Assembly: GCA_949152475.1 (NCBI GenBank) | Contig: OX424566.1 | Span: 18,003,177 to 18,067,176, forward strand | From: Terebella lapidaria | Taxonomy: Eukaryota > Annelida > Polychaeta > Terebellida > Terebellidae | Length of the DNA: 64,000 nucleotides | Direction: 5' to 3' | In this document: positions 16,150-48,854 of the stretch, in pieces | Layout: every line of letters starts with the position of its first letter | Position numbering within the stretch: the first letter of the stretch is position 1 | Notes under the pieces: model-generated | What the model saw: only the letters and a program-made list of their open reading frames with translations | What the model was told of the DNA's origin: nothing | Databases searched by the model: none | Position numbers and translations under genes: made by a program

Positions 16150-19100
16150 ATGATGGAACCAGAACTCCCAAATACTGACAAAACAAGGATAGCATTGGAG
16201 GAGACAGGCAGAAAATGCATCGATAATGATAAAGATGATGCTGATGATAATGGCGATGTTGAGAGTCCTTGGGCATGTCTGATTCCGGAAGAGGTTCTCC
16301 TGAAAGTTTTCAACACTGGGGCCCAGTACTATGGCAGTGTGCCATTTTTATGCCGGTTTGTACATGACCATAATTTTCAAGTTGGAAACTGGATATGCAA
16401 CTAGTATTGATACTTTTACTGATCATCACTTTCAAAAACGAAAACTTTTTCTCTTTGGTGAAGGGTGGCTCAGGTATGTCGACGGTGGATGTATGTGGCT
16501 TACCACCCCTCCCTCTGGGACAAAGTGGACTTGTCCATTGGTTGGATAGCTCGTGATGTCGAAGGACTCCAGCTTCTCTGTGAGACGAGACTCTTCCGTA
16601 CCAGGTCGATCAACTTGACGTCCTGGTTCAAAGTGGATGACAGGTGCCTGCAGGTTTGCATGCTGATGTTTACATGTTTACTTGTATATGTACCTATGTA
16701 CTAAGTTAGTTGTCATTATATTATATGCAGGTATGATCAGGGAGATTATATGTAGAGTTATACAAGATATGAATGCAGAACAGTTGAAGTAAATGTGTGG
16801 ATTATTATTTTTTGCATAAAGAATACACCATGTACACATGATACATGGAACATGTAGGAACGTCAAATGTGTGTTGTATGACATCGTAACTTTTCAAAAT
16901 CTAAAGTACAATGTAAAAGTAACAAAATTCACTCTTCATTATAATATCATATACAGTGGATCCTGTGTTTTAAGACCACCCAAGGAACCCCAAAAAGGTG
17001 GTCTCAAATGACAGGTGGTCCCTCATGACAGGTTCATTTGCATGATAAAAGGCCACTTGGGACCATGTGGACCGGTCTTAAAAACACAGGGTGGTCTCTC
17101 AAACCAGGTGGTCTTTAACACAGGATCCACTGTATCAATTTTACATAATTATACACCTATCAGCATGAATTCATACCGGTATCGCTCACGATGTCAAGCG
17201 TTAGACATCCAAAACTAATGCGATACTTAATGCTGATACATAAATACTAGTATTATATTCCAGTGTCTGGCTGAGAACTGTAACAACCTGACAAGTCTGA
17301 ATCTCTCACACTGTGAACAGCTGACTCCCGAGGGTCTACTACAGCTGGGTAGAGCCCAGCTGCCCCTACAACAGCTGGATCTTTCCTTCACCTCTGTACG
17401 TGAAAAACTTATCACATACCACCGAGAATGTATACTGTAAACCAGGAATATCGGCGTCAATTACGTTTAGCATTTTCACCAAAGTGGATGTGTTTGGTTA
17501 GTGGCCATTTAATTTTGTGAGTGGATGACAGTGAAAGTTTTCTGCCAGAAATTTCTGGCACCCGTATTTTATGATGATAAGGGGTTTTTTTAGCGAATCT
17601 TTTTCAAAATAAGAATGCGAAATAGATGGATGCTAATACATGTACTGACTGGGTTTACAGCATTTATAATCTGATGATAGTGTAGTTTTCTATTTTGTAG
17701 CTTGTACATGTAGATTGTGAAACGAATTACACTTAATCATAATATTGTAAGTGTGTATCGATAAATACATTATGAAAGTACATGTACAGGTGTCCCACTC
17801 ATATAAGACCTACCCTTCTGCCACGAAATTGAGGTCTCATCTGATAGAGGGAAAGCCTAATAGAGGAGAAATAATGAGGAATAGGGAAAGTCATTACACA
17901 TGTTACAGAGGGGAAAGTTTCTATTGAGGGGGAGGGAGGTGGAGGGGGCACTGTAGTAGTCATGATAATTGAGAGTAATCTTGATAAATGTAACGATGCA
18001 TGTTGGTGTATTGGGTGTACTGTACGCGTACCGTATATTCAAGCTTTTTATTCATTTTTACTCTCAGCCTGCGATATCGAGTAAATCCTGCATGAAAGAA
18101 CTTATCACCAGCATCAAGGGTGCCCTCAGGAAGCTGATTCTTGCACACAATCTCATCGACAATGACTTCTCCAGTATGATAAATTTTGTCGCTGTAAGTT
18201 ACATACATGCATTGTTTTAATGGTACATCAATATGTGTATGATGTGTGCTAAAACATTCTTGTAGTTGCTCATACATCGTAATTTACATGCATACAATAC
18301 TGTATTATACATGTATATTGTGGAATTATATGGTTTTTCGCAAGATAAACTGCTAAAATTAATAGGTCATGTATATTTACACGTCATTGTATATGGCCTG
18401 ATCACAAAAAACAATTTGGATGCTGACATAAATTTTACAGTAATTTAAATTGTGCCAAATTCCTCAGTTATACCCGATGAGTGTACACAATGATGCATTT
18501 ACAGTATCTGGAATGTTTATAATTGAAGAGGAAGAAGCATGCTACATGTATGTAAAATAAACAAGTTCAATGATATGTACACGTACATGATATAGTTAGG
18601 CATGAAAATTAAAAATTGAATCCTGCCCCCTCTACCTTCAAAAGCAACACTGCCCCAAGCTGGAGTACCTCGATATCAGTCACCTTGGCGACACATTGAT
18701 GACTAAACAATGGGTGTACATCGACATGGAACATCTTCAGGAGCATTGCCCTAACCTGCAAGTACTGCTCATGGCCAAAAGTCCAATCAAACTGCTACCC
18801 GTTCCAGAAAGCACCAAGGTTTGTTTCATAAATACAATCAAGTGTTTATTGTGTGTTAACACTGTTTATCCAAAGCTTGACATGCCAAACATCTAAATGA
18901 TGTCAAATGAGTACGAGTCTATTTGTACTTTATTATTGGGGACAAGAAATATCATAATGTTGCATCAGACAATCATAATGTACTCGAATCATTGTTTGGT
19001 TTGATTGAAACATTGTATTCATTTTACAGGCGTTTTCAGCTGGTTTCCCAAAACTGTTGAAGTTCAGTGCCCCTGCCTGTATCAAGGATGATCTGATAGA

Positions 19101-22100
19101 AAGGTATGTATACTTCAAATGTCATGCTTGATGACATGTATTTCAGTGAAAATTTATTTTCATAAATTCAGTGTCATGAGGGCTTGCTATTCTCAGAGTC
19201 TTTTTCTACACGCAAAAGTGCATGGACATTGCATAGTCATGTAAATTGACAGTTGATCAGTTCAATAAATTCCGTGTATACCCATACAGGTAAGTTCATC
19301 CTAAAGAAAATTTTCCAATACATCCTAAAGGAATTTTTTCGTTTTTACCATTCATGTCAGAACTCTGAAGTCATCGTTCGATCTTGAGTCTCTGAAGCTG
19401 TCAATGGATCTAGCCAATGATGTTCACTACAGCCGCATCCCAGCCACGTCACTAAAGACACTAGTCGTCCACAGAGCCAGGGACAGTCAGCTACAGCTCA
19501 GGGTGAGTTCACTACAGCCGCGTCTCAGGCCACGTCACTAAAGACACTAGTCGTCCACAGAGCCAGGGACAGTCAGCTACAGCTCAGGGTGAGTTCACTA
19601 CAGCCGCGTCCCGGCCACGTCACTAAAGACACTAGTCGTCCACAGAGCCAGGGACAGTCAGCTACAGCTCAGGGTGAGTTCACTACAGCCGCGTCCCGGC
19701 CACGTCACTAAAGACACTAGTCGTCTACAAAGCCAGGGACAGTCAGCTACAGCTCAGGGTGAGTTCACTACAGCCGCGTCCCGGCCACGTCGCTAAAGAC
19801 ACTAGTCGTCCACAGAGCCAGGGACAGTCAGCTACAGCTCAGGGTGAGTTCACTACAGCCACGTCCCGGCCTTGTCACTAAAGACACTAGTCGTCTACAA
19901 AGCCAGGGACAGTCAGCTACAGCTCAGGGTGAGTTCACTACAGCCGCGTCCCGGCCACGTCACTAAAGACACTAGTCGTCTACAAAGCCAGGGACAGTTA
20001 GCTACAGCTCAGGGTGAGTTCACTACAGCCGCATCCCAGCCACGTCACTAAAGACACTAGTCGTCCACAGAGCCAGGGACTGTCAGCTACAGCTCAGGGT
20101 GAGTTCACTACAGCGGCGTCCCGGCCACGTCACTAAAGACACTAGTCGTCCACAGAGCCAGGGACAGTCAGCTACAGCTCAGGGTGAGTTCACTACAGCC
20201 GCATCCCGGCCACGTCACTAAAGACACTAGTCATCCACAGAGCCAGGGACAGTCAGCTACAGCTCAGGGTGAGTTCACTACAGCCGTGTCTCAGGCCACG
20301 TCACTAAAGACACTAGTCGTCCACAGAGCCAGGGAGAGTCAGCTACAGCTCAGGGTGAGTTCACTACAGCCGCGTCCTGGCCACGTCACTAAAGACACTA
20401 GTCGTCCACAGAGCCAGGGACAGTCAGCTACAGCTCAGGGTGAGTTCACTACAGCCGCGTCCCGGCCACGTCACTAAAAACACTAGTCGTCCACAGAGCC
20501 AGGGACAGTCAGCTACAGCTCAGGGTGAGTTCACTACAGCCACGTCCCGGCCTTGTCACTAAAGACACTAGTCGTCTACAAAGCCAGGGACAGTCAGCTA
20601 CAGCTCAGGGTGAGTTCACTACAGCCGCGTCCCGGCCACGTCACTAAAGACACTAGTCGTCTACAAAGCCAGGGACAGTTAGCTACAGCTCAGGGTGAGT
20701 TCACTACAGCCGCATCCCGGCCACGTCACTAAAGACACTAGTCGTCCACAGAGCCAGGGACTGTCAGCTACAGCTCAGGGTGAGTTCACTACAGCGGCGT
20801 CCCGGCCACGTCACTAAAGACACTAGTCGTCCACAGAGCCAGGGACAGTCAGCTACAGCTCAGGGTGAGTTCACTACAGCCGCATCCCGGCCACGTCACT
20901 AAAGACACTAGTCATCCACAGAGCCAGGGACAGTCAGCTACAGCTCGGGGTGAGTTCACTACAGCCGTGTCCCAGCCACATCACTGAAGACACTAGTCGT
21001 CCACAGAGCCAGAGACAGTCAGCTACAGCTCAGGGTGAGTTCACTACAGCCGCGTCCCGGCCACGTCACTAAAGACACTAGTCGTCCACAGAGCCAGGGA
21101 GAGTCAGCTACAGCTTTGGGTGAGTTCACTACAGCCGCGTCTCAGCCACATCACTAAAGACACTAGTCATCCACAGAGCCAGGGACAGTCAGCTACAGCT
21201 CAGGGTGAGTTCACTACAGCCGCGTCCCAGCCACGTCAATAAAGACACTAGTCGTCCACAGAGCCAGGGACAGTCAGCTACAGCTCAGGGTGAGTTCACT
21301 ACAGCCGCATCCCGCCCACGTCACTAAAGACACTAGTGGTCCACAGAGCCAGGAACAGTCAGCTACAGCTCAGAGTGAGTTCACTACAGCCGTGTCCCAG
21401 CCACATCACTAAAGACACTAGTCGTCCACAGAGCCAGGGACAGTCAGCTACAGCTCAGGGTGAGTTCACTACAGCCGCATCCCGCCCACGTCACTAAAGA
21501 CACTAGTGGTCCACAGAGCCAGGAACAGTCAGCTACAGCTCAGGGTGAGTTCACTACAGCCGTGTCCCAGCCACATCACTAAAGACACTAGTCGTCCACA
21601 GAGCCATGGACAGTCAGCTGCAGCTCAGGGTGAGTTCACTACTGCCGCGTCCCGGCCACGTCACTAAAGACACTAGTCGTCCACAGAGCCAGGGACAGTC
21701 AGCTACAGCTCAGGGTGAGGTTTTGAATGCTGACAATAGTGAAAAAAAATTGATCGGTACATGAATACCTGTAGTGTTTCCTGTCGTACATGTATATGAA
21801 CAGTTCTGTATGCTAATCGTCCTGCTGTTTTCGCTTCGTCAAGAACATTGATAAAAAAAGCATTTAGTCAAATAATTGATGAAAAAACCACATGGATTTA
21901 CACATATCTTGCAGACACTGACAATCAGATTCTTCATGTGATTTCCAGTGGCATCACTCGCTGGCTGTGCTCGACTTCTCCTGGATAAAGCTGGCCGGAA
22001 CTTGGAACACGAGCAGCCGGATAGAGACGGTCTTCTCCAGGCTTTTCGACCCGAACGGTCCACAGTTTGAAGTCCTACACACCATACTACTCTGTGGCTC

Positions 22101-22607
22101 ACCAATATCTGTTGGGTGTCTCAGGTGTGTGGAATAAACGTAAACAGTTACAATGTTTACAGGGTGTTCCAAAGTTATACATTAGTTCTGTATTTGTAGG
22201 AGAAATTTAGTTGTCGAATGGAAGTTAACTACAGTACTGTGCATGTGCATACCTACACATATAAACTGTCATGTACATACCAGTATAAGATTCATCATAT
22301 ATGTACTGCATTCCCTAATGTTTAGTTTTCTGATGCAATGCACAATTGGGGAATTGACAGGCACACTGTAGATAACTGAACAAAATCCACGTATACATAC
22401 ACGCAAATCTAAAATGTAGCATCAGAAATACAGTCATGTCTATTCTGCCCTGTTTCCAGGCCTATATTTGAGAGCTGCCCACGACTGCAGACATTGAACC
22501 TGTTGCTCTGTGGATTGCTGCCCCTTGGCTGGCACCAGGAGTTCACTGGAAACAGTCTCACCTTCTTCAAACACAACATGCTCGGGCTACCGCTTCCGGG
22601 CAGCTGA
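16150..22607 (+). CDS. FBXL6: F-box and leucine-rich repeat protein, FBXL6-like, 9 exons
   Basis: Nine exons join in phase: 16150-16355, 16464-16653, 17264-17395, 18068-18193, 18645-18818, 19030-19103, 19361-19502, 21949-22124, 22460-22607 (1,368 nt, 455 aa). The F-box lies at about residues 42-90: LIPEEVLLKVFNTGAQYYG, VPFLCR|VAQVCRRWMYVAY, LWDKVDL, close to human FBXL6 (VPLEILVRIF, MPFLGRAARVCRRW, LWHTVTL). Leucine-rich repeats follow (CNNLTSLNLSHCEQLTPEGL, CPNLQVLLM). The C-terminus CPRLQTLNLLLCGLLP matches the FBXL6 end (CPGLLYLNLESCRCLP). Human FBXL6 is 539 aa. Such proteins bind Skp1-Cullin1 through the F-box and present substrates for ubiquitination; the substrate here is unknown. An acceptor at about 16080 suggests a separate 5' UTR exon. 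Exon 7 ends in a repeat unit that continues through intron 7 as a minisatellite. Confidence 0.82.
16954..17132. mobile_element. Mariner-like MITE (CAGTGGATCCTGTGTT), FBXL6-like intron 2
   Basis: 179-bp near-palindrome: CAGTGGATCCTGTGTT at the left and AACACAGGATCCACTG at the right, flanked by TA on both sides. Internal 'ggtggtct' and 'agaccacc' blocks repeat. Same family as 22752-22928. Confidence 0.85.
19423..21719 (+). repeat. 85-bp minisatellite, ~27 copies, carrying an exon end and splice donor
   Basis: The unit begins in exon 7 of the FBXL6-like gene (TTCACTACAGCCGC...) and ends with CTCAGG|gtgag. The first copy supplies the last 80 nt of the exon and its donor. Donor-position GTGAG motifs recur at 19503, 19589, 19674 and so on to 21715, which gives 26 further units at 85 bp (one of 86). 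Copies are about 90-98% alike by eye. A higher-order period of eight units (about 681 bp) shows because the rare variants 'ccttgtcac' and 'gactgtcagc' occur near 19870/20551 and 20080/20761. Since 85 is not a multiple of three, reading on into the array meets a stop in the second unit. Confidence 0.95.
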
Positions 22608-24614: not shown

Positions 24615-25541
24615 TCAACTCGCTGCATGGTCTATACGATCAAGTCCATCAGCATATTGGAAGTCCTGACTATTCTCATACTCTGCCATGTCTAGGGCAA
24701 CCTCACAGCTTTCAGAAACCACACGTTCACCATCCCTGAGATAAGTTTTCAAGATTTCCATACATTTATCCGTGGCGATGGACCCAAGTGCTTCAGCGCA
24801 TTCGTGTCTAACCATCGGATTTTCACCACCATCCCGCAAATTCTCAATGAGCTGCTTGACGCCCGCAGGATTCTGCATCTGACCGAGAACGTAGGCGATT
24901 TCGTGTCGGAAAAGTGCGCTCTTGCATTTCAACCCCTCAGCCAAAGCAAGAGTCGAGTCATCACTGTTCCTGTTTCTCAGAGCAAACATCGCCCTGTACC
25001 TCTCAAACAGTGGCCGCGATTCATCCAGTAAAATGTGCCTGAGTGCGCTGATGTCCATGTCGATGGAGGGAGGGGCCGGATCAACAGAAGCATACGGGTT
25101 CTGCGAGAGGTTCTCAGTCGCTCGTTCTTTACCATGTAGCCAGCGTATTCTCTCTGCAGCTAGCTGGCAGGTCTCCGCGACTTCAACAATCGGATCATTA
25201 CTGTGAGCTTCCAGTAGCTCTAAGACGTCCTTTGATCCAATGGCTCCCAAAGCCTCGCCGGCCTCGTGTCGTACCATCACTTCCTGTTTCCTGTCTCTAA
25301 GCACGGACACCAGACAAGGGACGGCTCTCTCGTCTTGCATCTGGCCAAGACAGTAGGCACATTCATGTTTGAGAAGCTCGGAGGAGTCTTTGAAACAGGT
25401 CTCAATGGCTTCAATAGCAGTGGCACCTCCAAGGTTACGTAGAGTAAATAAAGCTCGGAAGCGCTCTGCCAGTGGTCGGGATGGGTTCTTGAGTATCTCA
25501 CCAACTGCACGGCATTCTGACTCATGGATTTGGAAATCCAT
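24615..25541 (-). CDS. DOHH: Deoxyhypusine hydroxylase
   Basis: A single coding exon of 308 aa (human DOHH is 302 aa). The enzyme hydroxylates deoxyhypusine in eIF5A, the second and last step of hypusine synthesis, in the cytosol. The protein is two halves of HEAT-like repeats joined by a linker (about residues 140-165: RATENLSQNPYASVD...). Four His-Glu pairs expected to hold the di-iron centre are present: KHECAYCLGQMQ, RHEAGEALGAIG, RHEIAYVLGQMQ and RHECAEALGSIA. The start MDFQIHESEC fits the family. A splice acceptor (ttccccacag|GTCACAG) ends 16 nt upstream of the ATG at 25557, so there is a non-coding first exon further right, not located. Confidence 0.96.
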   Translation of the reverse strand: MDFQIHESECRAVGEILKNPSRPLAERFRALFTLRNLGGATAIEAIETCFKDSSELLKHECAYCLGQMQDERAVPCLVSVLRDRKQEVMVRHEAGEALGAIGSKDVLELLEAHSNDPIVEVAETCQLAAERIRWLHGKERATENLSQNPYASVDPAPPSIDMDISALRHILLDESRPLFERYRAMFALRNRNSDDSTLALAEGLKCKSALFRHEIAYVLGQMQNPAGVKQLIENLRDGGENPMVRHECAEALGSIATDKCMEILKTYLRDGERVVSESCEVALDMAEYENSQDFQYADGLDRIDHAAS

Positions 25542-25609
25542 CGTTAGAAACTGTGACCTGTGGGGAAAAAGTAAGATGTTGTAGATCTACCATAAGGCTA
25601 AGCAGATAG

Positions 25610-30708: not shown

Positions 30709-31443
30709 TGTGGCGATTTTGCCCTAAGCACGCGGCAGGTGATTGTAAACATAAATGCCATTTATGTGGCCTTTTCGTACTTGGCCTTGTTTTGACATGC
30801 TCCGTTCGAGCGTGCGTTGCCACGGCGACGTATTGTAATTTACGCTCCAGTAAACTATAACAATGGATCGATTTAACCTCGCGTGCGCCCTACAGTTTCT
30901 GGTGTATTATATATACACTGGAAGCGACTCGTTCGAGGAGATTGTCCAAGATCGAGACTAGGACGCACACGAGGCTCGCCATGAGCTTTGTGTTCCCTGG
31001 GTCTGAGTAGTGGGCTCCTAGAGCCCTGGGGACGATTTCCGTGGGGATGCCCGGGCTGGGAGAGACGAGTTGCTGACTCGGGGGCCTTCGGCCCTGTGGA
31101 TCGCCAGCTCTCTCCCTTCCCGGGACATGTGACAGAGGCTCTGGCCAGCATGTCGGACTGTACGGGGTTCCGTCCCCGAGGCAGACCGCGGCTCGCCAGG
31201 CCCCGCCAGTTAACACCGTAGGGATGAACTAGTTTCTGAACGGTGTCCGTAGGCCTGGGAGTGTCGGGTGGGCTGTTACCTGGTTACCGTTAATGATGAA
31301 GTAGTTACCGTGTCCGCCGCGACCTCCGGTGAGCGGCCCTGCCGCGAGGATCCGGAATAGCGGATGCGCGTCCGCAAGGACTCGGATGAGAGAGGACTAT
31401 CCTCGATGATCCCGAAGAGCGGACGGTAGTCAATAACTTTACA
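30709..31443 (+). repeat. 5' LTR
   Basis: 735 bp, TGTGGCG...TTTACA, with the canonical TG...CA ends. It matches the 3' LTR at all but one position that I could find (T at about 31046 against G). It contains a TATA-like 'gtattatatatacac' near 30902. Confidence 0.95.
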
Positions 31444-31444
31444 T

Positions 31445-31462
31445 TGGTGCCGTGACCAGGAT
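31445..31462 (+). other. Primer-binding site (tRNA-His)
   Basis: TGGTGCCGTGACCAGGAT, one base after the 5' LTR. It is complementary to the 3' end expected of an invertebrate tRNA-His (ending GTCACGGCACCA). Confidence 0.75.
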
Positions 31463-31555
31463 CAGTCCGACAGTGTTCCATCGCAGCCTACCCTCACAGC
31501 GTTGTAGCCTCCTTAGTCCCTGGGGATAGCCCGCTCCTCAAGGACATCTCAAAGG

Positions 31556-33772
31556 ATGACAAAGGAAAGAGACAAAGCCAGAGATAAGGCTAATGAACCC
31601 AAGGGGGGGGAAACGGGAGGTAATGTCGCGGATCACACCCGGTCGCGCGACAGCCGCCGTGAGACATCTTCGGGTGACTCCGGCGGCCGGAGGGAATGTG
31701 CGGAGCCCTCCGCGGACAGAACCCAGTCTGCGGAGTCGACTCCGGCGTCCCTGACTCCGTCTCCGGACGTAGAGTCTAGCCCCGCGGGGCCGCAACAGGA
31801 GTTGTCATCAAGGCCGGGCCTTGATGTGTTAGGCGCGGTAGGCGGAGCCGGCAACGGCTCTACGCCGCGCCCGCCCAGGCCCAGAATGAGTCCGTGGCAA
31901 GCGGCACTCTTCCGTGGGACGTCTCCGGACGTCCGGAATCGAGCGCCAACTACTGCGGGCACTTCTGGACAGGCGGACCAGCAGTACCAGATGCCACTCC
32001 TGGCCGGGTGGGCTCCTTCGCGAGCCTCCGGCATGGGCTCTGGTCGGTCCGCACCGGGTGATGTGGTAGACCAGCTCGCCGATGCGCTTGGTGAGCTGGC
32101 CCCCAGAGGGCGCTATGACCGCGCCCGGTCGCCCCATCAGGGACGATCAGACCGGCGGAACCGTTCCCCCTCTCCGCTGTCACAAGGCAACTCGGGGCCT
32201 TTGACGGAGAGGGAGAGGTGGCTGATATCCGAGGCGCTTGTACTTTTCAAGCGGAATCAGCCGCCTTCGAGCGTTGACCCGTCGGCCATCTCAAGTCCGG
32301 GGATGTCTGGGCCAGTAGCCCCTCCCCAAGTCCTGCCGAGTCCGCAGGCGCCAGTGGCCCCCGCAATGGGACCCGCGCCTGCCCCGCGGCTCGGAGGCAC
32401 CACGTTGGCGACCGCGTCGACCGTTCCGACGGTTGGAGCGCAAGCCGCGTGGCCGACTTACCCTGGCACGTACAGTGTGTCGGACGGGCAGTGGCAACAG
32501 GCGGCTACGGCCCCAAGCTTTGCCGCCCCTTCTGGAGCCTACCCAGTAGGTTCGATGGGAGCCCCGCCCGCACCTAGCCAGAGTGGGTTTTTAGCGGGAA
32601 TGACCCCGGCGGCAAACGTGAGCTTCCCTGCTCCTCCGTCCGCGGCGTCGATGTTTGCTCCGGCAGACTCCGCCGCAGGCGCAGGAAGCGCACGGAACTT
32701 GCCGCTGTACACGGACGACCCCGGAGCCGGGACCGCACGTCGGGCGCGTAGCAAACGCGATGACGGGCCCGACCACTCTTCGTGGCGGAAACGGTTCAAC
32801 GGGGATAACGCCGACTTGGAGGACTACTTGCTCCAGGTATGGCGTACCGCCGTGTGCGAAGGATGGTCCCAGCATGAAGCTGGACACGTCCTCGCGGGGA
32901 GCCTGGAAGGGAAAGCTCTCCGCGTGATGCCGTGTCTGCTGGTGGGAACAGTGACGTTCGGCGAGGTTGCTCGTCAACTTCGCCTGCTGTTCCCGCCGAC
33001 GACCAATCGGCGGCAGTCTGAACGAGAGTTCAAGGCGCGTATCCGCCAGCCGACTGAGTCCGTGACAGACTATGCGTACAGCTTACGCATACTCGGCCGG
33101 AGAGCTTTTCCGGACATGGACTCCAGACGGTTTGAGACGATGCTGATCGATCAGTTCATCGATGGCCAGCCTTACCACCTAGCATACGGGCTGGCCACCC
33201 ATGAAAAGCGATCGATGGAGGAGGCAATAGACTCCGCGCTTGCGCTTGAGATGGCTGTCCGCCCTAGACAGTTGCCTCCAGCCCCGGCTCCGGCCTCGGC
33301 TGTACCCGCGCAGGCGGCGACTCCTCCTCCGGTCAAGGCATCGCAGGTAACCCCGTGGCAGGACCCGGTCGTCCGGGAACCCGCCAGGGAACCTACCCAG
33401 CAGTGGGTTAGTGCGCCGGCACCCTCTACAGGGGCGCCCGCACAGGCGGCACCGGTTGCCGCGCCGTCCTCATCTCCGGATGAGTACGACTATGACGAGT
33501 ATGATTTCAGCGCTGCGCAGATGATTGCGTACTGCGCTGGGATCGACACTCCGGGGCCCGCTGAATGCTGTGCGTTCACATCCGGACCAGCTCAGAACCG
33601 CCCCTGTTATTTCTGCGGAAAACAGGGACACTTTTGGCTGAAGTGTCCGGAGTTGTTGGAACGCTTGCGGGCACGCGGATACCAGGGGGTCCTCCCCAGT
33701 CCGCGCCGGAGTAACTACTCCCGGCCTGGTCCCGCGGGACAACAGGGCCGTCCCTCACGGCAGGGAAACTGA
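31556..33772 (+). CDS. gag: LTR element gag
   Basis: About 738 aa. A long proline-, alanine- and glycine-rich, probably disordered N-terminal part (to about residue 400) precedes a capsid-like region (from about SSWRKRFNGDNADLEDYL; includes FPPTTNRRQSEREFKAR and VTDYAYSLRILGRRAF) as in Ty3/gypsy Gag. An acidic stretch (DEYDYDEYDF) follows, then one CCHC zinc knuckle CYFCGKQGHFWLKC near residue 690 for RNA binding, and a basic tail. Gag packages the element's RNA into cytoplasmic particles. The frame precedes pol directly. The element as a whole is a broken fossil. Confidence 0.9.
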   Translation: MTKERDKARDKANEPKGGETGGNVADHTRSRDSRRETSSGDSGGRRECAEPSADRTQSAESTPASLTPSPDVESSPAGPQQELSSRPGLDVLGAVGGAGNGSTPRPPRPRMSPWQAALFRGTSPDVRNRAPTTAGTSGQADQQYQMPLLAGWAPSRASGMGSGRSAPGDVVDQLADALGELAPRGRYDRARSPHQGRSDRRNRSPSPLSQGNSGPLTERERWLISEALVLFKRNQPPSSVDPSAISSPGMSGPVAPPQVLPSPQAPVAPAMGPAPAPRLGGTTLATASTVPTVGAQAAWPTYPGTYSVSDGQWQQAATAPSFAAPSGAYPVGSMGAPPAPSQSGFLAGMTPAANVSFPAPPSAASMFAPADSAAGAGSARNLPLYTDDPGAGTARRARSKRDDGPDHSSWRKRFNGDNADLEDYLLQVWRTAVCEGWSQHEAGHVLAGSLEGKALRVMPCLLVGTVTFGEVARQLRLLFPPTTNRRQSEREFKARIRQPTESVTDYAYSLRILGRRAFPDMDSRRFETMLIDQFIDGQPYHLAYGLATHEKRSMEEAIDSALALEMAVRPRQLPPAPAPASAVPAQAATPPPVKASQVTPWQDPVVREPAREPTQQWVSAPAPSTGAPAQAAPVAAPSSSPDEYDYDEYDFSAAQMIAYCAGIDTPGPAECCAFTSGPAQNRPCYFCGKQGHFWLKCPELLERLRARGYQGVLPSPRRSNYSRPGPAGQQGRPSRQGN

Positions 33773-33780
33773 ACTCGGAC

Positions 33781-36700
33781 GTGGTGGCGACCAACACTAC
33801 GTCCGAGGACAGTTGTTCCGTGGCAACGGATGCCGCCCCACCTACGGATGAACTGGACGAACCTCAAGTAGATATAACTTCTCCGGAAGTGGTCCTTGAG
33901 GACCAGTCTGGCTCGTCCGCGGCTGAGGCGGATCACGAGGACTCCGAGAATGGGCCCAGTGCGTGCGAAAGATACCGTTCAAGAAACGCACTGGTCAAGG
34001 ACACTTGCTGGTACCTGCCCCTGCCACTCGGGCGGGAGCCGGTCCGGTTCCTTGTAGACTCAGGCTCGGAGGTCACCCTCATAGCCATAGGAACGTTCCG
34101 GAAGGAACCCGTGCTCCGCAACCTTGAGTTGCGGGATCCCGGTCCTTACCAGCTCTACGGGGCCGGTAACAACCGCATCCGTGTCTACGGTATCGTCGAG
34201 TTGCCTGTTACACTTGGGGACAAGGTGTATCCGACAGAGGCAATCGTCGCAGACATCGGAGCGGCCGGGATTATTGGAATGAATTTTCTCCGGGCCCACC
34301 GGGTCACCGCTAACTTCAGTGCGGGTGAATTCCGGATGGGAGAGGATACTCACTACCTCTTCCGCATGGGTCCAGTGCATTCGTTCCAAATGCGGGTGGC
34401 GCGCACCACGGTGGTGCCGCCTATGAGCGAGATGATCATCGAGGCGCGGCCGCGTCGTCCCCGCATGCCCCTCGAAGGTCGTCCGTGTATAGTGCAGCCG
34501 GTGAGCAGTTTCGCCAAGGGAACTGGGCTCGTGCTGGGCGGGACTCTGGTCAAGTCCGACGCCCGCATGATGCCCCTTCTCGTGGTGAATCCCACGGACT
34601 CACCCGTTGTGCTGCGGCGCGGGTACCTAGCAGCTACAGCTGTGCCCGCGTCGTCTAGTCGGGTCATCCCCGACGATCCGGTCTGCCGCGCTGCGTGCGC
34701 GGCGGCGGCCGCCGGAGATGATCCGTTCACCCTGCCGGACCATCTGGAATCTCTGGTTCCGAAGGACCGGCTGGGTGGAGAGCAGCGCCAGGCGCTCCGC
34801 AGACTGTTGCGGCAGTATGCGGATGTGTTTATGGGTCCGGATGGTGCGGTCGGCAAGACAGACGTTGCCAAACACCGCATCGACCTCCTAGACGAGCGTC
34901 CGATCAAACAACGTCTACGGCGAGCAGCGATAGTGCACCAAGAGGTCATTGACCAGGAGGTGCAGAAGATGCTCGAGCTAGACATCATCGAACCCAGTGA
35001 CAGCCCTTGGGCGAGTCCTGTGGTTATGGTGAAGAAGAAGGACGGCTCGTGGAGGTTCTGCGTTGATTACCGTAAGCTTAACGATGTCACGCGGAAGGAC
35101 TCATATCCTCTCCCGCACATGGAAGACACCTTCGATTCCCTGGCCGGATCGCACTACTTCTGTGCTCTGGATCTGGCCTCCGGGTATTGGCAGGTCGAGA
35201 TGGAGGAGAGTGATAGGGCAAAAACTGCCTTCGTTACTAAGAACGGGCTCTACCAATTTAAGGTAATGCCGTTCGGGCTCTGTAACGCTCCAGCGACGTT
35301 CGAGCGCCTCATGGAGATGGTACTTAAAGGGTTCCTTTGGAAGCGATGTATGGTCTACATCGACGATGTCGTCGTGTATGGCCGGTCGTTCGAGGAAACC
35401 CTCACCAACCTCCAGATGGTACTCCATCGCATCCGCGGAGCAGGGCTCAAGTTGAAGCCAAGTAAATGCGAACTTTTCGCGCAGGAGATCCTGTACTTGG
35501 GCTTCATGGTAACGGGCACCGGAGTTAGGCCAGATCCTAAAAAGCTAGAGGCCGTCAAGAACTGGCCTCGGCCTTGCAACGTGGCGGACGTGAGGTCCTT
35601 TTTGGGCTTCGCGAGTTACCACCGCCGGTTCGTGCGAGGCTTTGCGGAGGTTGCGCGCCCCCTTACTATCCTTACGGAAAAGGGCGCCAACTTCATCTGG
35701 TCTGAAGAGCAGGTAACTGCCTTCGCGGAACTCCGGAGGGCTTTGGCAGATGCGCCGGTGCTGCGGCACCCTCGTCCGGATTGCGAGTTCATCCTGGACA
35801 CTGACGCGAGTAACTTTGCACTCGGCGGTGTCCTCTCGCAAATCGTGGACGGGCAGGAGCGGGTAGTAGCTTATGCGAGTGTGGCTCTCAGCCGCTCTCA
35901 AATGAACTACTGTACCACGCACCGCGGGTTGCTCGCGGTTGTTACTATGACCAAGCGCTTCCGGCACTATCTGTTGGGACGCCATTTCCGCTTGCGGACC
36001 GACCACGGTTCGCTGAGATGGCTCCTCAACTATAGTGAGGCCGACGGCTTGGTGGCCCGGTGGCTCGTCAAACTCCAAGAGTATGACATGAAAATTGAGC
36101 ACCGCGCCGGTAAGTTGCACGGCAACGCGGACGGCTTGTCCCGTTGTCATAAGTGCAAGAATCCTGGCTGTGCAGGGATGGCTCCATTCCAGCACGCCGC
36201 GGATTCTTCCTCAGACTCGGAAGTGGACCTTCCGGGGAGAAAGCAGGCCGCCGCCCCCTCTAACAACACGGCGGCCGGAGCAGCAGGAGTTCACTCCCGC
36301 GCGAGGACCCGCCGTTACCGGCGTTGGCGCCCCGCGTTTGAAGCGGAGGTGCGGCTCAGCTCCAGCGAGTCTTCCTCAAGTCCGGCGGTGTACTCCTCGT
36401 GGGTACCCTCGTCCACGGACGAATCTGAGTATGAGCGGTCCTTACCCCCTGTGGTGATGGCCGCTGCGGCGCAGTCGGACGCGTCGGATGAGGAGCCTAA
36501 TTACCTAGGTGGCTACTCTCCGGCGCAGCTGGCTGCGAAGCAGAGAGCTGACAGTGCTCTGGCACCGGTAATCCAAGCCCTCGAGGCCGGCCAGAAACCC
36601 TCTAAGGATGAGCGGAAAACCTACAGGGAGGAGACCCAGTCTCTCATCTCCCAGTGGGAAAGGCTCTCCTTGAGGGATGGCCTCTTGTACCGGCGCTATG

Positions 36701-37461
36701 AGCCTCCGACTCCACTGCCTCCTATATGGCAGTTGGTGCTTCCGGCGGAGCTGCGGAAAGAAGTACTCCACCAGTTGCATGACCTCCGGGTGACCGGTCA
36801 CTTGGGAATCCGGAGGACCGTCCATAGGCTACAACAGCGCTTTCATTGGCCTGGTAGCAGTTTGGACGTGCAACGGTGGTGCGCAGCCTGCCCACGGTGT
36901 CAAGCTCGGAAAGGAGTTCCGGCTCCTGGCCGCCACCCCTTAACCACGGTTAAGGCTGGCGCGCCGTTTGATCGGATAGCTTTGGATATATTGGATACCC
37001 ACCGGGTCACCCCGCGCGGTTTCCGGTACATCCTGGTGATATCCGACTATTTTACCAAGTATACCGACGCCTACCCACTGATGATGCTCCCGTATGGGAT
37101 CCGTCCGGTCAGCATCCGCGGACTCCGGACGAGCGTGTGCGCCGTATGGTGGGCCTCCCGGACCTCTCTGACCCGTCAGATGATGGACTGGGTGGCTATC
37201 AGCCAGATGACGGCGATCCGCAGGTACCCCCACTCCCTCCAGTACCTGCGGATGACGGGCGGCCACGCCGGAAACCACGTGCGCCAGCCCGGTATGGGTG
37301 GGAATAACCTTCCGCCCATGCGGATGCGTCTGCGGTACCCGTCTGTCATACTATGGATGGGTTTTAGGTCGTTCCGTGAGAGTCCGCACGACTTACCTCC
37401 GCGGGTGGCTACTTTGTGGCTATCTTCGGAGTTGAGGTCCGCGGAGACTTTCATGTCGTAA
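33781..37461 (+). CDS. pol: LTR element pol region (broken element)
   Basis: Lies in a different frame from gag, as in relatives that express pol by programmed frameshifting. Domains in order: aspartic protease (FLVDSGSEVTLI), reverse transcriptase (FCVDYRKLNDVT, ALDLASGYWQ, catalytic YIDDVVVYG), RNase H (LDTDASNFALGGVLSQ, RTDHGSLRWL), a serine-rich spacer, and integrase (zinc-binding H...H...C..C in HDLRVTGHLGIRR...CAACPRCQ, then ALDILDTH). This order and the chromatin-free C-terminus fit Ty3/gypsy. Part of a broken element. Confidence 0.88.
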   Translation: MVATNTTSEDSCSVATDAAPPTDELDEPQVDITSPEVVLEDQSGSSAAEADHEDSENGPSACERYRSRNALVKDTCWYLPLPLGREPVRFLVDSGSEVTLIAIGTFRKEPVLRNLELRDPGPYQLYGAGNNRIRVYGIVELPVTLGDKVYPTEAIVADIGAAGIIGMNFLRAHRVTANFSAGEFRMGEDTHYLFRMGPVHSFQMRVARTTVVPPMSEMIIEARPRRPRMPLEGRPCIVQPVSSFAKGTGLVLGGTLVKSDARMMPLLVVNPTDSPVVLRRGYLAATAVPASSSRVIPDDPVCRAACAAAAAGDDPFTLPDHLESLVPKDRLGGEQRQALRRLLRQYADVFMGPDGAVGKTDVAKHRIDLLDERPIKQRLRRAAIVHQEVIDQEVQKMLELDIIEPSDSPWASPVVMVKKKDGSWRFCVDYRKLNDVTRKDSYPLPHMEDTFDSLAGSHYFCALDLASGYWQVEMEESDRAKTAFVTKNGLYQFKVMPFGLCNAPATFERLMEMVLKGFLWKRCMVYIDDVVVYGRSFEETLTNLQMVLHRIRGAGLKLKPSKCELFAQEILYLGFMVTGTGVRPDPKKLEAVKNWPRPCNVADVRSFLGFASYHRRFVRGFAEVARPLTILTEKGANFIWSEEQVTAFAELRRALADAPVLRHPRPDCEFILDTDASNFALGGVLSQIVDGQERVVAYASVALSRSQMNYCTTHRGLLAVVTMTKRFRHYLLGRHFRLRTDHGSLRWLLNYSEADGLVARWLVKLQEYDMKIEHRAGKLHGNADGLSRCHKCKNPGCAGMAPFQHAADSSSDSEVDLPGRKQAAAPSNNTAAGAAGVHSRARTRRYRRWRPAFEAEVRLSSSESSSSPAVYSSWVPSSTDESEYERSLPPVVMAAAAQSDASDEEPNYLGGYSPAQLAAKQRADSALAPVIQALEAGQKPSKDERKTYREETQSLISQWERLSLRDGLLYRRYEPPTPLPPIWQLVLPAELRKEVLHQLHDLRVTGHLGIRRTVHRLQQRFHWPGSSLDVQRWCAACPRCQARKGVPAPGRHPLTTVKAGAPFDRIALDILDTHRVTPRGFRYILVISDYFTKYTDAYPLMMLPYGIRPVSIRGLRTSVCAVWWASRTSLTRQMMDWVAISQMTAIRRYPHSLQYLRMTGGHAGNHVRQPGMGGNNLPPMRMRLRYPSVILWMGFRSFRESPHDLPPRVATLWLSSELRSAETFMS

Positions 37462-39936
37462 CGCCGCCGCTCCGCATCCGCCCTCCTGTAGTTTCTAGCG
37501 CCAGGGACGTGCGGATGGCCTGTCCGCACCTTGTGGACGGCTGTCCGGCGTAATCCGCACAACGGTTACGCTGGCCGGACGAATTTACTGATCCGGCCGG
37601 ACGCCCCTGGTCCCGGGACAACCTCTTATATGGCCAGACTGAGGTTGGGATTTACGTCCGCTACGGGAGAAGCGCCTTCCCACGGATTTGGGGAACTGGC
37701 TCTGGACGCGGGGATAGTGTCCGCAGATGAGGACTGATGTCCGCGGTTCGTCCGCGTGACTCGTCCGGCGTCCGCGGCGCTTTAAGATGACGCACTTCGG
37801 TGTAGTTATCCCCCGTGAGCCACTACTGTAATTGCGGTTATAGTAGTTTAAGGTTTCTACGGCAGGAAACCGTTTACCATTATTTATAATGGACCGGCTG
37901 TTAAGTCCGCGCGTGCGGACCAGCCGCGGCAGTGGGGGACGCTCATTTTCGTCCGGATCGCACCTTATAATACGCGGTCCGGCCGGGATGACCGGATCCC
38001 CGGCCCCTTTCTAAGAAGGGGGTCGTATTGTACATGCGCAGCATGCTTTGTGGCTTTTAATCCCTATCATTGTCATTGGATAAGGTCAATATGCCAAATT
38101 TATGGTGGGCGTTCGTTCTGGACTCCGTCCGCGGGCAGTTCCGGACGTCCGCCGGCTATTGATTTCATCATGTTAGGGATCCTCTAGATTGGGCGCCGGC
38201 ATGACGGGCACGTTCCCCCTAGCCATAGGGGCTACGGACCATGCCGGCTCCGCGTCTAATCTATTGGTTCCGCGCTCCGGTAGTCGTTTGGATTGGCTCT
38301 GGGTTGGACCGGACACCGCTCCGCGGTCGGGCTGTACGTTGGGATTGCTAGTGGGCGGGTCGCTACCGCCCATAGGGCGCCCAATTGTCTGTCCGGACGT
38401 CATGGGTATGTCCGGTCGCCCTGTAAGCGTACCAGCGGCTATGGGGAGTGATTTTGTTTATTTTCCATCTCACCTTATTATTTAGTGAGTGGATTATATA
38501 AGCCACAAGTGTGCGGCATGTCTCTGGAGAATTCTGTTCTTGCTCGATTAATGACACAATTGAGACAAGTATGTGAAATTTCCTTTCCGGTGCAATAGAG
38601 AGTAAGAAACCGGGAGAATTCCGCTCTCGAAAGAGGGGTGTAAGGAATTGCGTTAATTTTGACAGTGACGGATTGATGTGCATATCCGAAAAGACTGGAG
38701 AATGACAATTTATTGTTGTTTTCGTCTGACATAATCGTAACAACCACAAGTTAGTGGTTACTGTCAATTTTAAGCCCAATTTCCACCTTGCTGTGTGATT
38801 AATTTTACGTCATTGACCGCCGGTGCGGACGCTAAAGCGAATGACTAATCTTGATTACAATATATATTTGCGAGGTCCCCCGGGATAGAAATACATTTTC
38901 TACCCGTATACATGGAGTGTGAGGAGTCACCGGAGGGAAATGATTGTTTCCGCATGAGTTTATAGTGTTTGAATTTTGGTTCGAGCAATGTGTCATTTTG
39001 ACCGGGGACAGAAGTTTTCAGTGACTCCGCGTGCGCTGCTACGCGTGTAGAATAGCTGTCAACAATTGCTGCATGTATATTTATACAACAATGTCGAACC
39101 CGGATTATTTATTTAATCTCCAGATGTGTAGCGCATTTGTTTTGTGCCATCCGCATTTCGTCCGCCGATGCGGCGCTGAATTCCGCGGGATCCGCGTGTC
39201 CGGTGTTCGAGATGCGGGTGATTTTGTCAGTTGTAAACTCCCCATGCGGGCCGTGCTGAAGATGTGCGGGCGGGCGGGCGGCTGCATGAAAGTGCAGACG
39301 TCCGTCCATCTGCGTGTCTGTACACAGGCCTGTGCGGGTTGCAGTATACAGATACTGGCAGTCGATGCGGCTTGCCGCGTTGGCTTTGATAGCTGTCTGC
39401 GACAGCTGTCCGCAGGTGTATGTGTGTCTGCTAGATGTACATATGTCATGCGGGCGTGCCGGAGTCGCTCCCGCGGCTCCGCCCTGCCTCAGACCCGTTC
39501 TGCGGATCTGAGGAGCCGGCCGGCAGGGCGGTCGGCAACATTTTTAGAGGTACTATCACTTTTGATCACTCGGTGTGTCGTTTTACAAAAATTTCTAAAT
39601 TTAAAGTTTAACCTTAAAGATATTCCAAAGACTCGACACACCGTCCTTTTATAACGGATGACCTTCCAAGGTCATCACACGGTTTTGGACCACCTCGGTC
39701 AAAATTTTAGCTTGTTTATGAGGGTTTATTCAAAATTGCAAAGCGCGTTATGGTTTACTCCGTAAGTCCGGGGGTAGTTCCCCATTCTTCCAAAAGGGAC
39801 TCTTAAAGTCCTAGTGTCTTGCGCCGTGACTTCCGGGCGTTGCCATCTTGCCTTCTTCCGGACCCCGCCATGCGAAGCCTTCGTCGGGTTTTGGCTGTTT
39901 TGGGCGCGGGCGGAACATGTTGGGGACCAACATTGT
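37462..39936 (+). other. 3' internal region of the LTR element
   Basis: About 2.5 kb of GC-rich, mostly non-coding sequence between pol and the 3' LTR. It contains a second polypurine-like block ('ctaagaaggggg', near 38010) that resembles the true tract, and short inverted repeats such as 'ccttccaaggtcatc' near 39661 and the pair 'cggtgtgtcg'/'cgacacaccg' (39571, 39634). A cysteine-rich open frame (39031-39654) has no recognisable signature. No envelope features. Confidence 0.6.
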
Positions 39937-39946
39937 AAGAAGGGGG
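39937..39946 (+). other. Polypurine tract
   Basis: AAGAAGGGGG, three bases before the 3' LTR, the usual plus-strand primer position. Confidence 0.75.
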
Positions 39947-39949
39947 TAA

Positions 39950-40684
39950 TGTGGCGATTTTGCCCTAAGCACGCGGCAGGTGATTGTAAACATAAATGCC
40001 ATTTATGTGGCCTTTTCGTACTTGGCCTTGTTTTGACATGCTCCGTTCGAGCGTGCGTTGCCACGGCGACGTATTGTAATTTACGCTCCAGTAAACTATA
40101 ACAATGGATCGATTTAACCTCGCGTGCGCCCTACAGTTTCTGGTGTATTATATATACACTGGAAGCGACTCGTTCGAGGAGATTGTCCAAGATCGAGACT
40201 AGGACGCACACGAGGCTCGCCATGAGCTTTGTGTTCCCTGGGTCTGAGTAGTGGGCTCCTAGAGCCCTGGGGACGATTTCCGTGGGGAGGCCCGGGCTGG
40301 GAGAGACGAGTTGCTGACTCGGGGGCCTTCGGCCCTGTGGATCGCCAGCTCTCTCCCTTCCCGGGACATGTGACAGAGGCTCTGGCCAGCATGTCGGACT
40401 GTACGGGGTTCCGTCCCCGAGGCAGACCGCGGCTCGCCAGGCCCCGCCAGTTAACACCGTAGGGATGAACTAGTTTCTGAACGGTGTCCGTAGGCCTGGG
40501 AGTGTCGGGTGGGCTGTTACCTGGTTACCGTTAATGATGAAGTAGTTACCGTGTCCGCCGCGACCTCCGGTGAGCGGCCCTGCCGCGAGGATCCGGAATA
40601 GCGGATGCGCGTCCGCAAGGACTCGGATGAGAGAGGACTATCCTCGATGATCCCGAAGAGCGGACGGTAGTCAATAACTTTACA
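39950..40684 (+). repeat. 3' LTR
   Basis: 735 bp, TG...CA, essentially identical to the 5' LTR. Followed directly by the right target duplication ATTA (40685-40688). Confidence 0.95.
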
Positions 40685-42824: not shown

Positions 42825-44216
42825 CTAGTTGCGTGCCATACCATTTTTGAAGTCGAGGGAGTTATCCCCGCACCACTCGGAGAAACATCTTCTCACTCGT
42901 TTACATACATCGACGTCGGTTTTGCGAGAGTAACACCGAATGATTATGTCCTGGAAATGTTCTGGCAACATTCTGGACACGGAATCTCTGTCAATCGGGA
43001 CCGCTCTGTTTGGGCTGGTCTTCGTGTAGAAGCGTGCGTTCCTCACGGGGTCAACATGCTTCATCCCATAGTTAAACTTAAGACCACACAGGAAGAAGTC
43101 ATCAGTTGTCAGATCTCGGTCCATTTCTGCAATTTTTTGTTCTGCGTCGCGTTTGATTGTACTTGTCCAGTAGTAGTCGGTTTTAGGCTTTGTTTCACCG
43201 ACGTAACGGTAGAGCTTCCGTTTCTCCATACGCTCCAGGATTTCCTTCGCAGGACCAAGACCTTTCAAAGATGACGTCATGATTGTTTGGATGACAGAGT
43301 CAGTCAGTCGCGTGTAGGCCGTCAAGTCATCAACGCACTCAGACAGTAACTTCAAATCTCCACCTTTACCTGGCACCGTAATGTGTGGGTGTGCCAGAAG
43401 CAATGCCTCCAAAACCATTTGCTCCAGGGCGACGCTGGTTTTGTGGTGTACGGCTTTGCGGTAGAGGGCATCGCGGGTGTGGAACATCTCATAGACATCG
43501 CTAACCGCTTTGTCACGGAAACATATTTTCCATGTCCCGTCACCGTCGTCATGAATTACTCGCGCCGTTTTCATGAGTCTTTCATACTGGAACATTGACT
43601 TCAGCCCGAGACCCTGACAATCTCGTTGGAAGTAATCCCACTTGTCGACGTCGATGCCTGTCGCTTTATTGGCAACAATTTGGTAGAGGCAGGTCTTCGC
43701 GCCATCACGGCCATTGTACTTATTGCCTTCGAGCGGTCCGAAAATGAGTTCTTCTATGAAGATCCTGTCCTCTGGGGTTTCAAGCCCATATTCTTCTAGC
43801 CGGATATCGTTTCTGTTCAGGAGATGTTCGAACATCTTGATTGAACATTCTTCATGCTTCCACCTTCTAGCTGGTTTGACGTCCGCCATGAAATCCTCAA
43901 AAAGATGAGAGAACGCACCATGACCCAGGTCATGACAGAGCCCGGCCACCTGGACACACAGGACGTCTCGTTCAGTTATTTTAAACTCTGGTTGATTTGT
44001 CTGCAGTGTCTTCACCAGCTCTCCCGCTAGATGACAGACGCCCAGGCTGTGCTCGAATCTGTTGTGCGATGCCCCCGGGTACACAAAGTAATTGGTTCCC
44101 ATCTGGCGGAGGTATCGCAGGCGCTGGAACTCTGGGGTGTCCATGATCTTGACACAAAGCTCCGGCAGTTCTATGTGGCCATGTATCGGGTCGTTGACGA
44201 TCTTTGAACAGGCCAT
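42825..44216 (-). CDS. SAMHD1-like dNTP triphosphohydrolase, copy 1
   Basis: Intronless, 463 aa from the ATG in 'cgaattaggATG' (the frame is open 10 codons further, but that is shared 5' leader). The family splits dNTPs into deoxynucleoside and triphosphate and restricts retroviruses and DNA viruses by draining dNTP pools. The HD-domain metal and catalytic residues are all present: NRFEHSLGVCHLAG (His), AGLCHDLGHGAFSH (His-Asp), WKHEECSIKMFEHL (His), and ATGIDVDKWDYFQRD (Asp with the conserved Lys and Tyr). EMFHTRDALYRKAVHHKT matches the family's allosteric/helical region. The SAM domain of human SAMHD1 (626 aa) is absent. About 75-80% like copies 2 and 3 by eye. Start, promoter and HD core are conserved, so it is probably functional. 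Confidence 0.92.
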   Translation of the reverse strand: MACSKIVNDPIHGHIELPELCVKIMDTPEFQRLRYLRQMGTNYFVYPGASHNRFEHSLGVCHLAGELVKTLQTNQPEFKITERDVLCVQVAGLCHDLGHGAFSHLFEDFMADVKPARRWKHEECSIKMFEHLLNRNDIRLEEYGLETPEDRIFIEELIFGPLEGNKYNGRDGAKTCLYQIVANKATGIDVDKWDYFQRDCQGLGLKSMFQYERLMKTARVIHDDGDGTWKICFRDKAVSDVYEMFHTRDALYRKAVHHKTSVALEQMVLEALLLAHPHITVPGKGGDLKLLSECVDDLTAYTRLTDSVIQTIMTSSLKGLGPAKEILERMEKRKLYRYVGETKPKTDYYWTSTIKRDAEQKIAEMDRDLTTDDFFLCGLKFNYGMKHVDPVRNARFYTKTSPNRAVPIDRDSVSRMLPEHFQDIIIRCYSRKTDVDVCKRVRRCFSEWCGDNSLDFKNGMARN

Positions 44217-44420
44217 CCTAATTCGTTGTGCTGTGAAGCCCAGCAATAGTTATTTCTTTCAGTTTGGTTGAAAGCGCACAAATAGTATCAGGCAACGCGT
44301 CTCGGTATATAAATATGTTCCTAGCTGTCATGTTCTTGACAGCATTTGACAACACCCCGGGGGATGCTCTCATCTTTTGAGAGGAAAAAGCCAAGTTTGT
44401 GGAGTGCAAATCTGTTATGA
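44217..44420 (-). promoter_or_regulatory. Shared proximal promoter, SAMHD1-like copy 1
   Basis: On the - strand a TATA-like 'acatatttatatacc' lies about 95 bp before the ATG, followed by 'gacgcgttgcctgatactatttg', then the leader 'cagcacaacgaattagg' just before ATG. The same order occurs upstream of copies 2 and 3. Upstream 'catgacag' and 'tgctgtc' blocks are also shared with copy 2. Confidence 0.65.
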
Positions 44421-48131: not shown

Positions 48132-48504
48132 ACTATTTTTATCGATATGTAGCCTATATAAGTCATAATGACCGAAGTAGTATATTAATGACCAACAAAC
48201 AGTTCCACCTCAATGAATGCATCTTCTGATTCACATTCATTGTGTTCTATAAAAATTCTCGCTTAATTTGAAGTGTCGAATTCCAAGTTTCCATGTGCCA
48301 GAACGACCGACGCGCATGAGCAAATCGGAGCGCTCATTTAATCACGCAAAACGAAGTTTGCGGGCTTAAATGAGATATTTATACACGGTATGTCATTGTT
48401 TATTTTCCACAGTCCTGTCGTTTGTACATTGTTAATATTCAACAATTTATTGCAATATTACGGAGCCCATAGGTTGCCATACCGAAAATATTTATTGATC
48501 CGTG

Positions 48505-48845
48505 TGCACGGTTTACCAATCCGTGCGCATGGTTTACCTAACTGTGCACACGAATTACCAAACCGTGCGCACAATTTAACAATTCGTGGCCATGAATTAA
48601 CAATCCGTGGGCACGATTTACTAATTCATGGGCACGAAATACTAATTCGTGCCCACGAATCGGTAAATCGTGCCCATGGCTTAGTTATACCAATTTGTGG
48701 CCACGAAATACTAATTCGTGCGCACGAACTGTTGGATCGTGTGCACGAATTGTTAAATCATGCCCACGGATTAGTTAAGGTAATCCGTGAGCACGAATTA
48801 GTATTTCGTGGCCACGAACTACTATTCCGTGCCCGAAAATTAGTA
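48505..48845. repeat. Array of palindromic CGTGNNCACG units
   Basis: About 14-17 units of roughly 18-26 bp, each centred on a self-complementary core of the form CGTGnnCACG (for example CGTGCGCACG, CGTGGCCACG, CGTGCCCACG) with 'aatta' or 'aaatact' linkers. The whole array can also fold on itself. On + it reads as a repetitive His/Gly/Leu/Arg-rich open frame, which is an artefact of the repeat. Confidence 0.85.
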
Positions 48846-48854
48846 TAATTGATG

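Follow-up and report, generated by a model that had tools for sequence, protein, structure and literature searches.

Tandem repeats that span exon-intron boundaries are known as 'mirages' from amphioxus, where they are described in Adh3 and globin genes (PMC3087553). There, both boundaries of exons are affected, the repeats are unstable in length (units of 10–160 bp; BflGb6 haplotypes with 6 and 3 units) and regular splicing is seemingly undisturbed as judged by RT-PCR; a second report adds mirages in PGBD5 and troponin C (PMC3902484). Three other systems are related. Human tandem repeats at exon boundaries within segmental duplications, with a mean unit of 30 bp and 4 copies, are reported to give rise to novel introns (PMC2812944). 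The Rogers model derives new introns from the tandem duplication of AGGT-containing segments, and a potato RdRp gene is given as a case (PMC4974935). A report on earthworm metallothionein genes places minisatellite arrays in the first intron (PMC12783039).

The array analysed here lies in a gene resembling FBXL6 in the genome of an annelid, within the window (the whole stretch of DNA analysed, 64,000 nucleotides). Like the amphioxus mirages of Adh3, BflGb6, BflGb9, PGBD5 and troponin C, it is a boundary-spanning minisatellite with splice signals in many units; it differs from them in belonging to an annelid, in having 27 copies and in having counterparts in several further genes, all of them known from genomic sequence alone. 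The human boundary repeats share with it that minisatellite expansion shifts what is exon and what is intron, but they are described as forming novel introns, whereas the FBXL6-like mRNA would be unchanged. Tandem duplication supplies extra splice sites both here and in AGGT-segment intron gain, but here an old intron is taken to have been lengthened from 234 to 2,446 nt and none to be new. The earthworm arrays likewise concern an annelid gene with intronic minisatellites; they are described as lying within the intron, whereas the FBXL6-like unit spans the exon end. The open-access literature searched did not yield any account of an exon-boundary array from an annelid.

The FBXL6-like gene and its array

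The features of the locus are as follows (positions in the window).

16150..22607, + strand: FBXL6-like gene, coding span, nine exons, 455-aa intact frame
16150-16355, 16464-16653, 17264-17395, 18068-18193, 18645-18818, + strand: exons 1-5
19030-19103, 19361-19502, 21949-22124, 22460-22607, + strand: exons 6-9
19361..19502, + strand: exon 7 (142 nt), of which the final 80 nt form the exon part of unit 1
19423..21719, + strand: minisatellite, 27 units of 85 bp, units 2-27 within intron 7
19503..19508, + strand: donor 1, AGG/GTGAGT, the sole frame-keeping donor
19539..19541, + strand: TAA stop in unit 2, in frame for transcripts using any of donors 2-27
19844..20268, + strand: units 6-10, first block copy, with 0, 0, 1, 0 and 1 differences from units 14-18
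20525..20949, + strand: units 14-18, second block copy, 681 bp downstream of the first
21715..21948, + strand: rest of intron 7 including donor 27 (GTGAGG), 234 nt of the 2,446-nt intron
21949..22124, + strand: exon 8, acceptor tttccag/TGG, phase 0

The nine-exon model has GT-AG at 8/8 introns and an intact frame of 455 residues; a candidate small exon near 16731-16790 is not part of the model, being incompatible with every phase. Among 61 protein matches, the best is a Paralvinella palmiformis protein (P0001; 48% identity, E 3.6e-127), the two best are unnamed F-box proteins, the further named vertebrate matches are mostly FBXL6 at 24–35% identity, and a Branchiostoma-named protein is absent. 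In Pfam, an F-box-like domain (PF12937) at residues 44-92 scores 42.4 bits, over the cut-off, and LRR_4 is over its cut-off too, with the leucine-rich repeats following the N-terminal F-box. This domain order and the closest named relatives fit FBXL6, and we regard the gene as FBXL6-like on these grounds. The P. palmiformis protein aligns without a gap through the exon 7/8 junction (...ARPQQIYVYWHSSL... / ...ARDSQLQLRWHHSL...), the only gap being one of 3 residues inside exon 8, and donor 1 and the acceptor at 21949 are thus supported independently of splice-site scoring. Intron 7 measures 2,446 nt, or 234 nt if counted from donor 27; the other seven introns are 108–672 nt long.

Tandem Repeats Finder (TRF) reports the array at 19422-21719 with period 85, 27.0 copies, 94% matches, 0% indels and a score of 4081, far beyond chance. 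In exon register the unit runs TTCAC...CAGG (80 exon nt) followed by GTGAG (5 intron nt), the first beginning at 19423, and the 27 donors at 19503-21715 are spaced by 85, except for 86 twice (after donors 1 and 10); the unit length is 86 bp in units 2 and 11 and 85 bp in the remaining 25. GTGAG is present in 27/27 units and is preceded by AGG in 24/27, the exceptions to CAGG being CGGG (unit 18), TTGG (unit 20) and CAGA (unit 23). In donors 1-26 the sequence is GTGAGT, the final T coming from the TTCAC to which the duplication joined GTGAG; donor 27 alone reads GTGAGG, adjoins unique intron sequence and is presumably the ancestral site. A 32-base piece of the unit has 6 exact matches in the genome searched (761.6 Mb in 438 contigs), all inside this array. 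With a minisatellite-sized tandem unit extending across an exon-intron boundary in a protein gene and a splice signal in all 27 units, the array is, by its anatomy, a mirage.

Of the 87 columns in the unit alignment, 32 vary and 55 do not. Over lags 1-13, the mean unit-to-unit distance is lowest at lag 8 (3.89 of 87 columns), matching the near-identity of units 6-10 with units 14-18. Units 2 and 11, at lag 9, have 2 differences and share the same extra base, so that the block may have had nine units at first, one since lost. A dimer block is also visible (units 23-24 versus 25-26, 1 and 2 differences). The array was read from one haplotype, in which the 681-bp block duplication shows past rearrangement. 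By eye, the array ends have just one base (G) in common, which is too little microhomology to build on.

In the exon parts of units 2-27 there are 31 distinct substitutions from the consensus, one of them creating a stop codon; 11 are synonymous versus 9.8 expected without constraint (p=0.70). Repeat variation is thus as expected without coding constraint, and fits units 2-27 being intron. The invariance of GTGAG in the 27 units is weak evidence for selection, since 55/87 columns are likewise invariant.

A first-pass annotation of this DNA had proposed an FBXL6-like gene whose exon-7 donor is multiplied by about 27 units of 85 bp from 19423, with an eight-unit expansion block of about 681 bp. 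The gene model, homologues, F-box-like domain and P. palmiformis alignment bear out the gene and the exon 7/intron assignment, TRF and the donor positions agree on the array, and the near-identical units and the minimum at lag 8 confirm the block. Its statement that every unit ends in CAGG followed by gtgag holds for GTGAG but for CAGG in only 24/27 units.

Donor choice and its consequences

Each of the 27 donors was spliced in silico by script to the acceptor at 21949. Donor 1 (19502/19503) was the only one to give the full 455-aa frame, and this result, together with the gap-free junction with the P. palmiformis protein, corroborates the earlier claim that only the first donor keeps the frame into exon 8. 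All the others (26/26) lead to one identical TAA after 360 residues. The same annotation had expected a premature stop from most other donors and had ascribed it to the frame shift of an 85-bp unit (85 = 3x28+1). The stop was indeed found, in fact for all 26 and as a single TAA in unit 2, but the explanation was mistaken: donors 3, 6, 9, 11, 14, 17, 20, 23 and 26 add a multiple-of-3 length and nevertheless meet the same TAA, which rules out the frame shift as the cause because the stop sits in unit 2 for every shift. A stop upstream of later exon junctions is expected to trigger nonsense-mediated decay; the TAA at 19539 lies upstream of such junctions, and decay of transcripts using donors 2-27 would therefore be expected.

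Donors 2-26 match donor 1 in sequence quality, save 3/25 with an altered base before the GT. Since most of them equal donor 1, its exclusive use would need an extra rule. RNA structure that hides donors 2-27 was rejected, because predicted accessibility does not set donor 1 apart (mean unpaired probability in the predicted RNA of 0.37 for donor 1, 0.25–0.45 for donors 2-26 and 0.50 for donor 27). Where all of several duplicated donors are occupied, the one nearest the intron can prevail; in this array that would be donor 27. Of two donors in DOK7, the intron-proximal one is reported to be preferred (PMC5585400). This preference, known from other duplicated-donor settings, would by analogy count against the choice of donor 1. 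Donor 1 is still probably the donor that cells use, judging from exon definition with a 142-nt exon.

Our preferred reading, to which we assign a probability of about 0.8, is that the array is of the mirage type and is carried along almost neutrally, that splicing from donor 1 to 21949 yields the normal mRNA and that other genes carry arrays of the same kind. A tandem duplication with one breakpoint in exon 7 (19423) and the other 5 nt inside intron 7 would have seeded the array. Growth to 27 units followed, in part through block duplications, as the near-identical blocks show. The first unit retains the real exon end and donor, and the last presumably the real intron start, so that splicing from donor 1 would remove units 2-27 as intron. 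Donor 1 would most likely be chosen by exon definition, in which the acceptor of exon 7 would pair with the closest good donor, 142 nt away; later donors would define exons of 228 to 2,354 nt. The downstream donors would then be idle or rarely used, with such transcripts decayed. The near-neutrality of the array and its origin by duplication are both inferences.

Donor arrays elsewhere in the genome

Similar arrays occur elsewhere in this annelid genome, with any unit length, and some would add residues rather than a stop. One gene resembling GABA-B receptor subunit 1 (GABBR1-like) was met by luck in a sampled stretch of contig C13 (PDB match E 6.8e-20).

C13:2.987-3.020 Mb: GABBR1-like gene, at L010 1-1475 and 7534-7770, L050 1898-2876, L051 4560-4795 and L052 1420-1590 (L010 and L050 overlap by 400 bases)

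In this gene, 5' splice sites are duplicated at four exons and a 3' splice site is present in triplicate at one. An exon ending ...NPHVNHTTYTGM is followed by ~20 copies of a 69-bp unit repeating the exon end and donor; the frame is open for 341 codons, 65 of them exon, and use of a later donor would therefore add 23-residue repeats to the protein. The following exon (...ALALNKTQQR/GTAAGA) is succeeded by ~20 copies of a 40-bp unit, with the donor decayed in several copies. Two upstream exons each have the donor duplicated once (104 bp and 77 bp), and further downstream lies an exon preceded by three 52-bp copies of its acceptor, the last leading into the intact exon.

Two patterns were then searched genome-wide, each with the pattern read backwards as control. 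Pattern 1, three AGGTRAGT at gaps of 60–90, gave 957 matches versus 383 reversed; among the matches listed on C1 and on C2 up to 53.06 Mb (154 Mb), our own grouping yielded 9 donor-pattern arrays versus 3 reversed. The upstream flanks of all nine were inspected, and six trace to a donor of an open frame (L054, L056, L057, L058, L059 and L060), five with an acceptor before the open frame and the sixth, L060, having an ATG start in its place; in L053, L055 and L061 the fetched upstream flank is repeat throughout, hence no exon call. Pattern 2, AGGTAAGT at gaps of 22–52, gave 371 matches versus 177 reversed. Our grouping of those listed comprises six groups, L057 among them and 5 new, with three clusters at C3:25.67-25.69 Mb counted as one group and its flank taken from the first cluster only. 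Exons were called in four of the new arrays (L062, L063, L064 and L066), and L065 is without an exon call. Over both patterns, 10/14 arrays trace to the donor of an open exon, the other four being L053, L055, L061 and L065.

Homology is firm in 4/10 of these exons, and the other 6 calls consist of an open frame with splice signals. The firm cases encode kelch repeats (L056; PF01344, 4.3e-20), a GHKL ATPase (L057; PF13589, 6.2e-9) that we take to be MORC-like, a SEC14-like protein (L062; 1.1e-14) and the alpha subunit of phenylalanyl-tRNA synthetase (L066; 2.6e-18). For L054 and L064 the Pfam matches were only sub-threshold; the L064 exon presumably resembles nucleoporin TPR, and its match is to another family. 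A Pfam search with L058, L059, L060, L063 and L065 and a PDB search with the exons of L054, L058, L059 and L060 gave no match. The exon donor is separated from the regular array by about 270 bases in L060 and about 420 in L066, made up of other sequence or degenerate copies. Inspection of the five donor arrays found independently of the patterns (the FBXL6-like array and four GABBR1-like ones) showed that none fits them with three copies; the patterns therefore miss part of the class, whose true size is probably larger than seen. The recurrence of donor arrays in this annelid genome is new.

Two individual arrays are of separate interest. The 31-bp array of L064 (C3:1739616-1742493) has 66 pattern matches listed over 2.9 kb, and its unit takes only ~4 nt of exon, so little exon suffices to multiply a donor. 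L061 (C2:53050108-53064522) spans more than 14 kb in which donor-like repeats of 40 to 48 bp abound.

TRF on C13 gave 63 rows with a period of at least 20, some overlapping, in 19 stretches of 10 kb at ~1-Mb steps over the first 19 Mb. In 257.4 kb there are 64 merged arrays, such that ~2.3% of random points fall inside an array's first unit; leaving aside L010, L050 and the window, there are 42 arrays in 180 kb and the figure is 1.8%. Given this first-unit coverage of 1.8–2.3% and the usual number of introns, many arrays across exon ends are to be expected. Tolerance and a high duplication rate may thus be enough, with random placement sufficing and no donor-directed process needed. The counts of GTRAGT in the TRF consensus units are few, below the number needed for an enrichment test.

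A mutational process aimed at splice donors, such as transcription-linked breakage, would instead account for the excess of donor-pattern triplets over the reversed controls (957 versus 383 and 371 versus 177) and for duplicated donors at four exons of one GABBR1-like gene. The excess, however, may consist of arrays that happen to span exon ends, and matches were counted per place, which gives long arrays more weight; arrays are dense everywhere, the GABBR1-like region is itself very repeat-rich, and a triplicated acceptor exists too. We consider an aimed process distinctly unlikely. A broader proposal is that donors are recurrent birthplaces of minisatellites genome-wide, in essential genes too and convergently with amphioxus, that introns lengthen freely by this route since the first donor wins, that in some genes a later donor used by mistake would insert whole repeats into the protein, and that rows of U1-binding sites might serve on the nascent RNA as a platform in cis. 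The recurrence itself is observed; a preference for donors and any function are speculative, and the proposal as a whole is, in our estimate, rather unlikely to hold.

The first-pass annotation had left two options for the FBXL6-like gene, a strong preference for the first donor or control of transcript level by unproductive splicing. The former fits best, and the latter finds no support in repeats that look unconstrained and in other arrays with any unit length. Stated fully, the array would be a tuned dial in which donors 2-27 compete and the copy number determines the share of mRNA that decays, and the 26 extra donors, mostly strong by sequence and each followed by the 19539 stop before later junctions, would provide the means for it. 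The unconstrained look of repeat evolution in the FBXL6-like array nevertheless speaks against tuning, and units of other arrays can be in-frame and open, as in the 69-bp GABBR1-like and 57-bp L063 arrays, in the first copies of the 36-bp L058 array and as far as fetched in the 30-bp L059 array, so a stop is no shared design. We hold such a dial to be quite improbable. An assembly artefact, with the repeat collapsed or over-extended, is very improbable indeed: block duplications and 94% identity make assembly difficult, and a mis-assembled amphioxus mirage is reported (PMC3087553), but private and shared variants are intermingled across the 27 units and arrays of this class are present at other loci, although the exact copy number may be wrong.

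Rows of near-identical donors in several genes constitute a natural test of how the spliceosome chooses a 5' splice site among equals. They indicate that amphioxus is not the only lineage with exon-boundary minisatellites, they offer a route for intron lengthening, and they are a warning to gene predictors, as open in-frame repeats could be annotated as protein.

Other features of the window and genome

Contigs C1, C2, C3 and C13-C17 of the genome measure 28–101 Mb, and those sampled beyond C17 are small. The mitochondrial COX1 on the 15,973-bp contig C438 contains in-frame TGA and reads through without a stop in the invertebrate mitochondrial code. Among the 120 listed of 7,999 COX1 proteins scored, that of Pilargis wolfi, an annelid in the order Phyllodocida, leads at 88%, ahead of Phyllodocida, Saccocirridae and nereidids at 84–87%, with gastropods lower down at 80–82%; the genome is thus that of a polychaete annelid. 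Amphioxus as its source is rejected on this result, on the 65% identity between the window's deoxyhypusine hydroxylase and Branchiostoma and on the lack of Branchiostoma names among the 61 FBXL6-like matches. Another COX1-like match, fragmented and with internal TGA (L048 and L049, C417:44633-46450), lies on a 61-kb contig and would be either another mitochondrial sequence or a nuclear copy.

In the window, 21-bp repeats around a near-palindromic CGTGNNCACG motif occupy 48498-48846, with several overlapping TRF rows. At 30800-40591, an open reading frame for reverse transcriptase, RNase H and integrase lies between long direct repeats that are identical at 550/551 positions over the stretch compared; this is a very young LTR retroelement, presumably Ty3/gypsy-like. 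Three related open reading frames with a Pfam HD domain, of 465–495 aa and each in a single frame, lie at 42825-44249 (- strand), 53164-54561 (- strand) and 59836-61323 (+ strand), and we take them to be SAMHD1-like. A deoxyhypusine hydroxylase, also in a single open frame (24615-25586, - strand), is 65% identical to that of Branchiostoma.
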